From Deferrivibrio essentukiensis (lineage in GTDB: Bacteria; Chrysiogenota; Deferribacteres; Deferribacterales; Deferrivibrionaceae), in assembly GCF_020480685.1 (NCBI RefSeq), contig NZ_JAJAFU010000005.1:62001-126000 (forward strand): a DNA stretch of 64,000 nt. Reading direction: 5' to 3'. The position numbers and the translations under genes were made by a program. Below, piece by piece: positions 11,054 through 57,953 of this stretch (positions within the stretch are counted from its first letter, which is position 1; every line of letters begins with the position of its first letter). The notes under the pieces are model-generated. The model did no database searches. It was not told where the DNA came from and worked only from the letters and a program-made list of their open reading frames with translations.

Positions 11054-11962
11054 TCATATCAAATTTTCTAACTGCTCAATAATATTTGACTGTCCCAATA
11101 CTATGATAGTATCACCCTCTTCAAAAACAGTATCAGGCCCGGGGTTATATATAAAATCCATAGTTTTTTTCTTGATAGCTACTACTATTATACCAATTTT
11201 CCTAATATTTGACTCCCTAATTTTTTTTCCAATCAATTTAGAAGAGCTTTTTAGAGCTATTTCACCCACTTCAATATTAAAGTTATTTTTACCCATCACA
11301 ATATCCATAAACTCCGTAACATTTGGCTTTAATATTGTATTGGCTATACTGACAGCTCCTATTGTGTATGGTGAAAAGACTTTATCTGCACCTGCCCAAA
11401 ACATTTTTGTAGCCGATTCTTCATCTGAGGATCTGGCTATTACAAAAAGATTTTTGCTAAACCCTTTGGCAGTGAGCACTATGTAAACATTTTCAGCATC
11501 GCTGCTGACAACTGCAATCAATCCTTTTGCCTCTAAAATATTTGCTTCCATGAGCACAGATTCCTTTGTGGCATCCCCAATTATGTATATTATCCCTTTT
11601 TCATTAAAGTAATCAATTTTAGAATTATCTTTATCAATAACAACAAAGGGCACCTTTTTTTTATCCATCTTTCTCCTGCCTAATATCTTTCTTATTTCCC
11701 CTGCTACTACAATTTCAATAGCTTGAGTTGCTGCAAATGCAATCGTACCAGCCCCTGTCAGAATTATAAATATTGTAAAATATTTACCTGTTGTTGACAA
11801 GGGGAAAACTTCGCTAAACCCTACCGTTGTAATAGTAATTACAGTCATATAAAACGAATCTAAAAAACTTACACCTTCAATATATTCATACCCGATTGTA
11901 CCTATTGCCAATATTGAAACAATAATTAAAAAGCTAATAACAATTTTTCTTAATGGATTCAT
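11054..11962 (-). CDS. Two-helix potassium channel with shortened RCK (TrkA) domain
   Basis: A 302-residue channel subunit. Two membrane helices (about 7-26 and 58-80) flank a pore with the filter TTVGFS, a variant seen in bacterial K+ channels instead of TVGYG. A TrkA-N/RCK region and a C-terminal TrkA-C domain (about 225-302, VGEIALKSSSKLIGKKIRES) follow. The RCK domain lacks its first beta strand and the GxGxxG loop: after GRRKMDKK at 96-102 the sequence goes straight to VPFVVIDKD, which in relatives comes about 30 residues later. The rest of the domain looks intact. Nucleotide binding is therefore doubtful. The gene overlaps the YggT gene by 4 bases with the next start. Confidence 0.85.
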   Translation of the reverse strand: MNPLRKIVISFLIIVSILAIGTIGYEYIEGVSFLDSFYMTVITITTVGFSEVFPLSTTGKYFTIFIILTGAGTIAFAATQAIEIVVAGEIRKILGRRKMDKKKVPFVVIDKDNSKIDYFNEKGIIYIIGDATKESVLMEANILEAKGLIAVVSSDAENVYIVLTAKGFSKNLFVIARSSDEESATKMFWAGADKVFSPYTIGAVSIANTILKPNVTEFMDIVMGKNNFNIEVGEIALKSSSKLIGKKIRESNIRKIGIIVVAIKKKTMDFIYNPGPDTVFEEGDTIIVLGQSNIIEQLENLI

Positions 11963-12774
11963 ACAAATATCAAACTTATTAGTCTTATTAGAAAAATTCT
12001 ACAAAATTCAATAATGAGCAGTGCAATAATCGGCGATAAGTCAATCATTCCAAATGGCGGTATTACCTTTCTAATTGGCTCAATAATAGGGTCAGTAATG
12101 GTTATAAGCATTTGTACAATAGGATTTCTTGGGTCAGGACTCACCCATGACATTAACGTCCTGATTATTATAAGCCATGTAATTATCCTAAAAACACCTA
12201 CAAATTCCATTAAGCCTGACTTTGTAGAGGTTTTAAGTAGAAATATAAAGTCAACCTTACCCCCCATTACGCTTACAGCACTTAATAAAAGTGTGTGAGT
12301 AATTACATAAGCAAGAAATATAACAATGATGGTAGGTAGTATAATTTTATTGCCTGAAATTTTTATAAATGTTCTGGTTAATTTTACCCAAAAAAGACCA
12401 ATTCTGTAAAAATAAGTAGTATATGCTCCTGCTGAATAAGTATTTACAAAACTACCTAAATAGACCGAAGCTATATAAAATAGCATTAAAAAACCTAAAA
12501 TATCACTAATACTTCTAATTAAAGATGAAATTAAATCTCCGTAAAAAAGTGCCATTAATAGTGCGTAAATAACTGTCAAAAAAATAATCAAGATTGGTAT
12601 AAGTTTATCAGTGCTGGCTTTTGTAAGCTTTTTAAAAAGTGTTGAAAATATAGGCTCAGTTGCAGCGGCTACAAACTTACCTGCCGGATTAAAGTATAAT
12701 TCCTGCCTTGTCATTACTCCCCGCAACATTAAAATAATAATATAAAATTTAATAAGTATTGAAATTAGTCCCAT
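11959..12774 (-). CDS. YggT-family membrane protein with two YGGT units
   Basis: A 271-residue polytopic membrane protein. Two YGGT-like units are visible; the second is the clearer, with WLIIIRTLMSWVSPDPRNPIVQMLI and DPIIEPIRKVIPPFGMIDLSP. Single-unit YggT proteins are about 90-190 residues, so this is the duplicated form. The function in most bacteria is unclear; a link to envelope stress, osmotic balance or cell division has been suggested. I place the start at the ATG at 12774, preceded by GGGG with a 5-base spacer, rather than at a TTG 18 bases upstream. It follows yggS directly, as in many genomes. Confidence 0.85.
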   Translation of the reverse strand: MGLISILIKFYIIILMLRGVMTRQELYFNPAGKFVAAATEPIFSTLFKKLTKASTDKLIPILIIFLTVIYALLMALFYGDLISSLIRSISDILGFLMLFYIASVYLGSFVNTYSAGAYTTYFYRIGLFWVKLTRTFIKISGNKIILPTIIVIFLAYVITHTLLLSAVSVMGGKVDFIFLLKTSTKSGLMEFVGVFRIITWLIIIRTLMSWVSPDPRNPIVQMLITITDPIIEPIRKVIPPFGMIDLSPIIALLIIEFCRIFLIRLISLIFV

Positions 12775-12775
12775 T

Positions 12776-13459
12776 TTATCCCCTTTTTCCAAAAATAGCA
12801 GAGCCTATTCTTACCATATTTGAGCCTTCTTGGATTGCAATCTCAAAATCATCACTCATACCCATAGAAAGATATTCAACCTTCTTAAGAGTATTTACCT
12901 TTTCAAAGAGTTCATACATTTTTCTAAAATATATTCTATTGTCTTCAGGATTATCAAGAAAAGGCGGAATCATCATTAGCCCTTTTAGATTTAAAAAATT
13001 ACTTTTTAGGACTTTATCAAGTAAAACATCAAAATCTTCAGGCAATACACCTGACTTTTGAGGCTCTTTTGCGACATTTACCTGAATAAGTATATCTTGG
13101 ATTCTATTAAGTTTTGAAAACCTTTTTTCCATCTCATTTACAAGTTCAATCCTATCTACTGAGTGAATAAGAGAAAAGTTATCCTTGAGATATTTCACTT
13201 TATTTGTTTGAAGATGCCCTATAAGATGAAATTTTATATCTTTATAATCTTTTAAAATCCCAATTTTATCAAGGGCTTCCTGAACCCTATTCTCTCCAAA
13301 AATATATTGACCGCAATTATAAGCTTCTATTATCTTTTCAGCAGGGTAAGTTTTACTGACTGCTACAAGGGTAATTGCATCTATTTTTCTGCCAGATTTT
13401 GATGCAGCTAATTCAATCCTTTCGTAAATATTTTCCAAATTCTTTTTTATTTCACTCAT
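12776..13459 (-). CDS. yggS: YggS-type pyridoxal phosphate homeostasis protein
   Basis: A 227-residue PLP-binding protein of the YggS/PROSC family, which keeps free pyridoxal phosphate in balance. The PLP lysine is K36 in TLVAVSKTYP, and further conserved segments are FGENRVQEAL, FHLIGHLQTNKVKYL, and SMGMSDDFEIAIQEGSNMVRIGSAIFG at the C-terminus. The gene overlaps yfiH by 8 bases and ends one base before the YggT start, so yfiH-yggS-yggT form one unit. Confidence 0.94.
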   Translation of the reverse strand: MSEIKKNLENIYERIELAASKSGRKIDAITLVAVSKTYPAEKIIEAYNCGQYIFGENRVQEALDKIGILKDYKDIKFHLIGHLQTNKVKYLKDNFSLIHSVDRIELVNEMEKRFSKLNRIQDILIQVNVAKEPQKSGVLPEDFDVLLDKVLKSNFLNLKGLMMIPPFLDNPEDNRIYFRKMYELFEKVNTLKKVEYLSMGMSDDFEIAIQEGSNMVRIGSAIFGKRG

Positions 13460-49975: not shown

Positions 49976-50525
49976 TAATTTTTGCAAAAAACTTTATATA
50001 GTATTCCACACCTGAATAAATTGACAACACCACAGACAGATAAATTAATATTTTGCCGATAAAGAAGATATCTATACCTATGAGATTATTTTTATATATG
50101 AGAAATCCAACTGCTATCATTTGAAAAACAGTTTTTAATTTCCCGGAAAAGCCGGCTGCAATAATTTTGCCTTTACTTGCAGATAAATCTCTCAGTGCAC
50201 CAACCGCAAAATCCCTTGACAACAATAAAATAACAACCACCCCTTCAACTCTGCCAAGCTCCATGAGGGCTATTAATGACGAGGCTACCAATATTTTATC
50301 AGCAACAGGGTCTAAAATTTTTCCAATGTCAGTTACTATATTGTATTTTCTTGCAAGATATCCGTCAACAAAGTCTGTCAATGATGCAACAGCAAAAATT
50401 ACTGCGGCAATTACGTTTGTCACGTATGTGTCAAAATATAAAAAGATTAAAAATGCAGGTATTAGGATTACTCTCAATATGGTTAACTGATTGGGAAGAT
50501 TAAAAAAATTCTTATTTAACATCAT
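49968..50525 (-). CDS. pgsA: CDP-diacylglycerol-glycerol-3-phosphate 3-phosphatidyltransferase
   Basis: PgsA makes phosphatidylglycerol phosphate. The 185-residue membrane protein begins FNLPNQLTILRVILIPAFL and has the full CDP-alcohol transferase motif DFVDGYLAR...GKILDPVADK, that is Dx2DGx2ARx8Gx3Dx3D. Several membrane helices follow. It overlaps the NtrC-type gene by 14 bases. The neighbours plsY and pgsA both act in phospholipid synthesis. Confidence 0.94.
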   Translation of the reverse strand: MMLNKNFFNLPNQLTILRVILIPAFLIFLYFDTYVTNVIAAVIFAVASLTDFVDGYLARKYNIVTDIGKILDPVADKILVASSLIALMELGRVEGVVVILLLSRDFAVGALRDLSASKGKIIAAGFSGKLKTVFQMIAVGFLIYKNNLIGIDIFFIGKILIYLSVVLSIYSGVEYYIKFFAKINE

Positions 50526-51858
50526 ATTTACTCATCTTATATCTAAATGTTCTTAAAGTAAGCCCTAAAAGTTTTGCTCCTTTACTTTGATTATTTTGAG
50601 CTACTTCAAGTGCCTTCTTTATATACTTTTCTTCTAATTTTTCAACCAAACTTTCCAAATTTACAGGCAAAGTTATTTCAGACACTTCTGTTATATCGTA
50701 TTTGTCTTCAAAAATATGTTCAGAAATACTTGTAGGTAAAAGTTTATTTGATTTTTCAACTACTACTGCTCTTTCTATGATATTTTCTAATTCCCTAACA
50801 TTACCGGGATAATCATATCTTTTTAGCATTTCCATTACAGCAAAAGATATATCATTTATCTCTTTATTAAGCAGTCGGCTATATTTTTCTAAAAAATGTT
50901 TTGCCAAGTAAGGGATATCGACCTTTCTGTCCCTTAGTGGAGGTATAAAAATATTAACAACATTAAGCCTATAGAAAAGATCTTTTCTGAAATTATTTTT
51001 TTCTATCTCTTCCAACAAATCTTTATTTGAAGCTGCAATCACTCTGACATCAATGTCTATGTAATTTGTGCCACCTATCGGCAATATTTTTCGCTCCTGC
51101 AACACTCTCAATAATTTAACCTGAAGAAATAAAGGCATATCGCCTATTTCATCGAGAAAAATAGTCCCATGATTGGCAATTTCAAAGAGCCCCTTTTTTT
51201 CAGATACGGCGCCTGTAAAAGAGCCTTTTTTATATCCAAAAAGTTCGGCTTCCAAAAGGTCTGAAGGGATTGCTCCGCAGTTTATCGCAACAAATTCATA
51301 TTTATTCCTATTACTTAATTTATGAATTGCTCTTGCAACTACCTCTTTACCTGTACCGCTTTCACCTGAAATCAAAACAGTAGAATCAGTCCCGGCTACA
51401 TCTATAATACTTTTTTTAACCTTTATAATACAGTCACTTACACCAACAATCTCTTTTAATTCATCACAACATTCACTAACTTCACTCTGAGTGTTTTCGT
51501 GTAATATGTTTTTGATTGTATCTACTAGCTTTTGCGTATCAAATGGCTTTGTCACATAATCTACAACACCTAACCTTATAGACTCCAGAGCTGTTTCAGT
51601 GTTTGCGTATGCAGTCATTAAAATAAAAGGAATATTTATACCTATTTCCGATGCTAACCTTGGTATTTGTAAACCGTCTTCATTACCAAGCATCAGATCA
51701 AAAAGGACAAGATCAACCTTTTCATTTTTTAGAATTTCAACGGCAGTAGAAATTGACTTTGCAGTAAATACAGAAAAACCTTCATCGAGGAAAAGAATCT
51801 CTAAAAACTCCCTGAAAGACTTTTCATCATCTACTACAAGTATTGAATATTTAGGCAT
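50512..51858 (-). CDS. NtrC-family sigma-54-dependent response regulator
   Basis: A 448-residue transcription activator. The receiver domain (1-120) has the acidic pair VVDDE, the phospho-acceptor in VLFDLMLGNEDG, and a lysine in VTKPFD. The AAA+ domain has GESGTGKEVVARAIH, the sigma-54 contact loop GSFTGA (a common variant of GAFTGA), DEIGDMPLFLQVKLL, and the arginine-finger region. A Fis-type helix-turn-helix closes it (GAKLLGLTLRTFRYKMSKY). It may be PilR, the partner of the PilS-like kinase in this window, but no adjacent kinase proves it. Overlaps greA by 8 bases. Confidence 0.9.
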   Translation of the reverse strand: MPKYSILVVDDEKSFREFLEILFLDEGFSVFTAKSISTAVEILKNEKVDLVLFDLMLGNEDGLQIPRLASEIGINIPFILMTAYANTETALESIRLGVVDYVTKPFDTQKLVDTIKNILHENTQSEVSECCDELKEIVGVSDCIIKVKKSIIDVAGTDSTVLISGESGTGKEVVARAIHKLSNRNKYEFVAINCGAIPSDLLEAELFGYKKGSFTGAVSEKKGLFEIANHGTIFLDEIGDMPLFLQVKLLRVLQERKILPIGGTNYIDIDVRVIAASNKDLLEEIEKNNFRKDLFYRLNVVNIFIPPLRDRKVDIPYLAKHFLEKYSRLLNKEINDISFAVMEMLKRYDYPGNVRELENIIERAVVVEKSNKLLPTSISEHIFEDKYDITEVSEITLPVNLESLVEKLEEKYIKKALEVAQNNQSKGAKLLGLTLRTFRYKMSKYDVK

Positions 51859-57258: not shown

Positions 57259-57441
57259 ATGACATTAATTTCATTTCTATCGAATAAGATAATTTCCTTT
57301 CTACCATTAATTATAACTTTAACAATAGTAGGAGTGACTATTTGGAGTAGCCATAAAATTCTAATTGCAAAAAACAGCGACATTGGAAGTGACAAGCTTT
57401 TCCCTAAACAGATTATTGAGGCCTTTGTTGCCACTCTTTAA
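57259..57441 (+). pseudogene. Truncated membrane-protein gene, cut by an insertion element
   Basis: An ATG at 57259 opens a frame of 60 codons. The first 53 residues (MTLISFLSNKIISFLPLIIT, then LTIVGVTIWSSHKILIAKNS) form one strong membrane helix and a short charged part ending DKLFPKQII. The DNA at 57419 then changes to the antisense of an IS256 transposase, so the last codons to the stop at 57441 are not native. It looks like the N-terminus of a polytopic membrane protein; a small-conductance mechanosensitive channel is one possible source, from weak likeness only. The 3' part is lost. Confidence 0.55.
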
Positions 57442-57887
57442 CCTTATCTATTATCTTATCTGTAATTTCACTAATTGCCACAGGGGATATGTTTATCCCA
57501 TATAATTCTGTTATATGCGATGAAATATCTTTATAGCTCATACCTAAGCCATACATAGCCAATATTTTACCCTCTATTTCATCACTAATGTCATCTAATG
57601 TTTTTTGACTATCTGAGGCTCAAATTCACCATCCCTATGGAGTACTTAATTCAAAACTACCTGCTGAGCTTTTTATTGTCTTTTTATTGTAGCCATTACT
57701 GCGATTTTTTCTTGTCTTCAGACTATTCAGCATTTAAATGCATGCTTATTTCTGCTTCAAGAGCTGTTTCCACCAATTCTTTAATCAAAGAACTTAGAAT
57801 ACCATCTTTACCTGTTAATTTCTTGCCTGATAATAAATCTTCTAATTCTTTTTCAAAATTAAATTTCTTTTCCATGTCAAGATTCAT
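57419..57887 (-). pseudogene. Decayed IS256-family transposase, N-terminal part
   Basis: Read on the minus strand from the ATG at 57887 (or 57875) the frame gives MEKKFNFEKELEDLLSGKKL, then TGKDGILSSLIKELVETALE and MHLNAE before a stop. In shifted frames it goes on with NRSNGYNKKTIKSSAGSFEL, RDGEFEPQIVKK and GKILAMYGLGMSYKDISSHI, then SPVAISEITDKIIDKVKEWQ. These are the standard N-terminal blocks of Mutator/IS256 transposases. At least three frameshifts and a stop break it, and it ends at KEWQQRP before the catalytic core. It cannot make an active enzyme. Confidence 0.9.
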
Positions 57888-57911
57888 CCTAATTTATTCT
57901 TCTTTATAATA

Positions 57912-57938
57912 CCTTGACACGGAATTTTGAACAGTCTC
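57912..57938 (-). repeat. Left terminal inverted repeat of the IS256-type element
   Basis: On the minus strand the sequence begins GAGACTGTTCAAAATT and continues to CCGTGTCAAGG, 25 bases before the transposase ATG region. A GAGACTGTTCAAA start is common in this family. The partner repeat is absent from the window. Confidence 0.65.
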
Positions 57939-57953
57939 TTTTAAAAGCCTTAA

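Follow-up and report, generated by a model that had tools for sequence, protein, structure and literature searches.

Based on comparison with orthologs and more distant homologs, we propose that a two-helix potassium channel gene of Deferrivibrio essentukiensis has recently suffered an 81-bp lesion and now encodes a channel that is unregulated or inactive and is being lost, a reading we hold to be probable by a modest measure. The gene lies in a 64,000-nucleotide stretch of genomic DNA, hereafter the window, and is of the MthK type, with two helices, a pore loop and one RCK domain. The gap is a real feature of the assembly, found in a single genome and probably recent, in an otherwise known kind of channel. 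The gene and its parts are arranged as follows.

11054..11962, minus strand: two-helix, single-RCK K+ channel gene of 302 aa with an 81-bp in-frame deletion (ORF from ATG, with Pfam Ion_trans_2, TrkA_N and TrkA_C)
11708..11926, minus strand: pore domain, Ion_trans_2, residues 13-85 (Pfam)
11810..11827, minus strand: selectivity filter, residues 46-51, reading TVGFSE where the ortholog of the same genus has TVGYGE
11673..11677, minus strand: AGGAG, Shine-Dalgarno-like, within the channel gene, 4 nt 5' of Met99
11666..11668, minus strand: Met99 codon, analogue of MthK Met107 and putative internal start for a soluble RCK subunit (Met in 16/17 aligned homologs)
11654..11662, minus strand: deletion joint at codons 101-103, which read Lys-Lys-Lys in an A8 run (placed by comparing DNA and protein to the ortholog at locus L002)
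11060..11263, minus strand: TrkA-C domain, residues 234-301, intact (Pfam)
11959..12792, minus strand: YGGT-family gene 5' of the channel, its stop overlapping the channel ATG by 4 nt

The two-helix pore is recognised by Ion_trans_2 with 54.8 bits over residues 13-85 (cut-off 22.5), and the RCK remainder is followed by TrkA_C, matched over residues 234-301 with 68.1 bits. The complete TrkA-C and the open frame, a 302-aa ORF from ATG, agree with a preliminary description of this DNA. The 4-nt overlap with the YGGT-family gene suggests coupled translation; 3' of the channel gene lie a PIN-domain protein and IspD.

The extent of the gap is defined by the same-genus ortholog of Deferrivibrio metallireducens V6Fe1 (329 aa, L002:1159-2145). 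At the joint, where RRKMDKK of the window channel is followed directly by KVPFVV, the ortholog has 27 extra residues, IKNLKDHYIVCGFGRIGKIVCEQLLDK, comprising the first strand, the GxGxxG loop and the first helix. The in-frame loss of the GxGxxG strand, as initially described, is hence borne out in the assembly, with its size corrected from about 30 residues and 90 bases to 27 residues and 81 bp. The eight-A run noted earlier at the joint is also present, A8 in the gene and T8 on the plus strand at 11655-11662. The two deletion ends correspond in the ortholog to a pair of A-rich DKK stretches that resemble each other, MDKKI and LDKKV, separated by about 84 nt. This is consistent with a short-homology deletion, the exact homology being legible only from the ancestral bases. 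The RCK N-lobe is accordingly incomplete at the first TrkA_N strand, with 27 residues absent: the Pfam match covers profile positions 16-116 of 116 in the window channel (residues 98-198) and 1-116 in the ortholog, and the score against an ortholog profile falls from 341.6 to 294.9 bits. Replacement of the lost strand by the end of the second helix was considered, as NCBIfam profiles start at residue 84, but was rejected, because the ortholog profile gains nothing before Met99 (294.9 vs 294.7 bits). A single-sequence AlphaFold2 model of the channel had a mean pLDDT of 35.8 and was discarded, and we therefore infer the loss of the fold.

The closest solved structure is that of MthK, the Ca2+-gated K+ channel of Methanothermobacter (1LNQ; E 3e-32 for the window channel and 3.1e-41 for the intact ortholog), which likewise combines two helices with one RCK domain. 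Unlike MthK, the window channel is without the first RCK strand and helix, the lost segment aligning to MthK residues of about 116-138, where the MthK RCK domain begins. Further differences concern the filter, TVGFSE in the window channel and TVGYGD in MthK, and the GxGxxG motif, carried by most intact relatives of the window channel. The Ca2+ site is not preserved: D184, E210 and E212 of MthK, the acidic residues of site 1, align to V, R and S in the window channel (phmmer). The regulatory type of the intact Deferribacterales orthologs is likely that of the Geobacter channel GsuK (4GX0), whose RCK domain has GxGxxG and, according to the accessible text of the GsuK study, binds ADP/NAD+ (PMC3510474). 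GsuK has two RCK domains per chain, whereas the window channel has one, with GxGxxG deleted. The soluble RCK proteins KtrA and TrkA have TrkA_N and TrkA_C in common with the window channel, but are separate transporter subunits, unfused to a pore, and are intact in this genome. No paper on an RCK channel without its first strand was found by title or abstract start in the open-licence literature, and the accessible portions of two papers describe the RCK architecture and the two-subunit TrkA ring, with first-strand loss absent from those portions (PMC2920069, PMC4380455).

Of 50 genomes in the phylum, 18 encode the channel at E<=1e-25. The segment was assessed in 16 aligned homologs, i.e. apart from the window channel, genome G002, in which the segment is unassembled, and G055, which is outside the phylum. 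All 16 retain the 27 residues, and 13 carry GxGxxG within them. A subfamily sharing the short form throughout, raised beforehand as a case against the initial interpretation, was sought, and the short form occurs in none of these 16. A scan of genome contigs gave a single weak match, to the pore over 61 residues, in an Omnitrophota bin; it was set aside, and the viral contigs scanned contained no match.

Selection on the gene constrains the age of the event. Against D. metallireducens, dN/dS is 0.083 for the whole gene, within the span of 0.005-0.26 for the 59 window ORFs compared, and by region 0.175 for the pore, 0.034 for codons 103-200 and 0.046 for codons 201-302. Codons 103-302 differ from the ortholog by six replacements, two assigned to the window branch, three to D. 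metallireducens and one unassigned, so that the window branch has at most three; about 100 would be expected on a neutral branch by our own arithmetic (Ks about 0.43, about 473 nonsynonymous sites). A long-standing decayed pseudogene is thereby ruled out. Because so few replacements accumulated in the RCK remainder, either the deletion happened recently or selection still acts on the short form, and the data do not tell these two apart. If function was abolished, the deletion falls within about the final 8% of the branch or a still shorter part.

We propose that short A-rich repeats recombined or slipped, which would have caused the recent 81-bp in-frame loss. The segment removed would represent the core of the RCK N-lobe together with its nucleotide site. 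The first strand forms the centre of the Rossmann sheet. As the lost strand is central, the N-lobe, and with it the gating ring that it builds, probably fails to form, and gating by nucleotides would be lost. In the accessible text on GsuK, the N-lobe from the first strand to helix F is described as the Rossmann fold forming the ring core (PMC3510474). The preliminary description held that the channel no longer binds NAD(H) or its usual ligand and may be ligand-independent or controlled through TrkA-C alone. Its former half stands for the nucleotide, since loss of binding via the GxGxxG loop would follow directly from the sequence; the latter half is only one possibility, inactivity being at least as likely as constitutive activity, and misfolding or degradation at least as likely as an unregulated open pore. 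Loss of the channel would be tolerable because the genome encodes KtrAB, TrkA and a six-helix K+ channel with TVGYGD (named from their sequences), and because many relatives are without this channel. If the lesion is indeed recent, the gene captures a K+ channel in the course of its loss.

Alternatively, the strain may have the full gene, with 81 bp dropped at the A-rich repeats during assembly, which we regard as unlikely but deserving of attention. The genome is a 64-contig draft, the gap falls on an A-run, and the channel gene is also broken in two other drafts. In G002, the third genome of the genus, it begins at a contig end, with its upstream neighbour ending on another contig, and contains a different in-frame gap of about 44 residues around the crossover helix, equivalent to window residues 195-238 (L017, G002:C47, about 50353-50735). 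In G018, another draft genome of the order, it is interrupted by a 236-base N-run (L015:1263-1498). We read both as draft problems that advise caution for the window deletion too, and given its position at a contig end the G002 gap was kept as such a caution and rejected as independent support. Against an artefact, the joint preserves the frame, the shared repeats are a few bases long, far below usual assembly words, and the rest of the aligned window is without a comparable coding indel. Most of the window aligns to D. metallireducens at about 89% identity, and no coding indel in the aligned part exceeds the 81-bp gap; the next in size measure 19 bp, close to the 3' end of one ORF (58289), and 12 bp. 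The aligned part leaves out about 0.6 kb, around 57.4-58.0 and 63.2 kb, unaligned to that genome. Separately, a synteny break is located at window positions 57417-57953, where the interval between the flanking matches is about 13 kb longer in D. metallireducens.

It is also conceivable, if improbable, that the channel remains functional in the absence of the first RCK strand, being constitutive or gated by TrkA-C. TrkA-C alone is not known to gate a pore. The kept frame and the dN/dS of 0.083 would equally suit a working short form, a point that counts against a recent lesion, and the RCK remainder is strongly constrained on the window branch. In addition, PMC7717905 describes channel activity in MthK pores from which trypsin had removed the RCK. 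The constraint may however predate a young deletion, the central strand is gone with no substitute in the adjacent residues as judged by the ortholog profile, and no other homolog among the 16 shares the form. A more specific version, in which a ring of eight shortened subunits from two starts in one gene works while locked in one state, its remainder under selection, appears very unlikely. If real and working, such a channel would show that the core strand can be lost without disabling an RCK ring, a point relevant to the way in which these rings drive pores. Least plausible, to the point of being nearly discounted, is that the nucleotide-binding lobe now missing is contributed by a separate RCK protein, KtrA or TrkA. 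Intact GxGxxG proteins of both kinds are available in the genome, but they are distant from the channel (24-25% identity), KtrA adjoins its own KtrB, and a sheet is not easily completed from inside by a partner. We retain the recent lesion as our preferred reading.

The recent lesion would extend to every product of the gene. In MthK, soluble RCK subunits arise from an internal start at Met107, as stated in the accessible part of PMC9440719, and the GsuK paper treats internal-start soluble RCK subunits as a general feature of most prokaryotic channels with a single RCK (PMC3510474). The counterpart in the window channel is Met99, the codon conserved in 16 of 17 aligned homologs, from which soluble RCK subunits should also be produced, as in MthK. 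GGAG or GAGG is found 5' of Met99 in 16/16, as compared to 31% expected from the local codon use of each genome. Pairing with the 16S tail is strongest at Met99 in 14 of 16 proteins, with a mean of -7.1 kcal/mol vs -1.9 kcal/mol for 135 other internal Met codons. The genus-averaged pairing energy was matched by 0 of 5000 synonymous samples, and when each genus was represented by a single drawn genome, 16 of 5000 reached the same strength; these statistics are approximate, as the genomes are related and the codon tables come from short loci for most. Single-genome synonymous p-values for the site range from 0.018 to 0.83, the window itself having 0.38. We predict that Met99 is a conserved start within the gene, used across this order to make soluble RCK subunits. 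As Met99 is positioned upstream of the gap, both products would be without the strand and all eight RCK domains of a ring would share the lesion; an intact RCK subunit cannot arise from this gene.

The preliminary description also considered the pore complete, which the filter does not bear out. The sequence TVGFSE departs from canonical TVG(Y/F)G at the second glycine, present in the ortholog's TVGYGE. According to PMC3283738, a paper on protozoan channels, mutation of the second filter glycine was shown to abolish K+ selectivity and function, and proteins of this kind are possibly non-selective. The K+ selectivity of the window channel is hence doubtful even with the deletion set aside. The filter change is no sign of decay by itself, and was ruled out as proof of it, because the second glycine is absent in 6 of 17 aligned homologs, including otherwise intact ones, in which E, R and S recur. 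Beyond this one gene, the internal start for soluble RCK subunits would be conserved across the order, while the second filter glycine has been lost repeatedly. It is replaced by S in the window channel and G003, by E in G009 and G016, and by R in G010 and G018, the variants other than that of the window being located at L003, L004, L011, L015 and L018.
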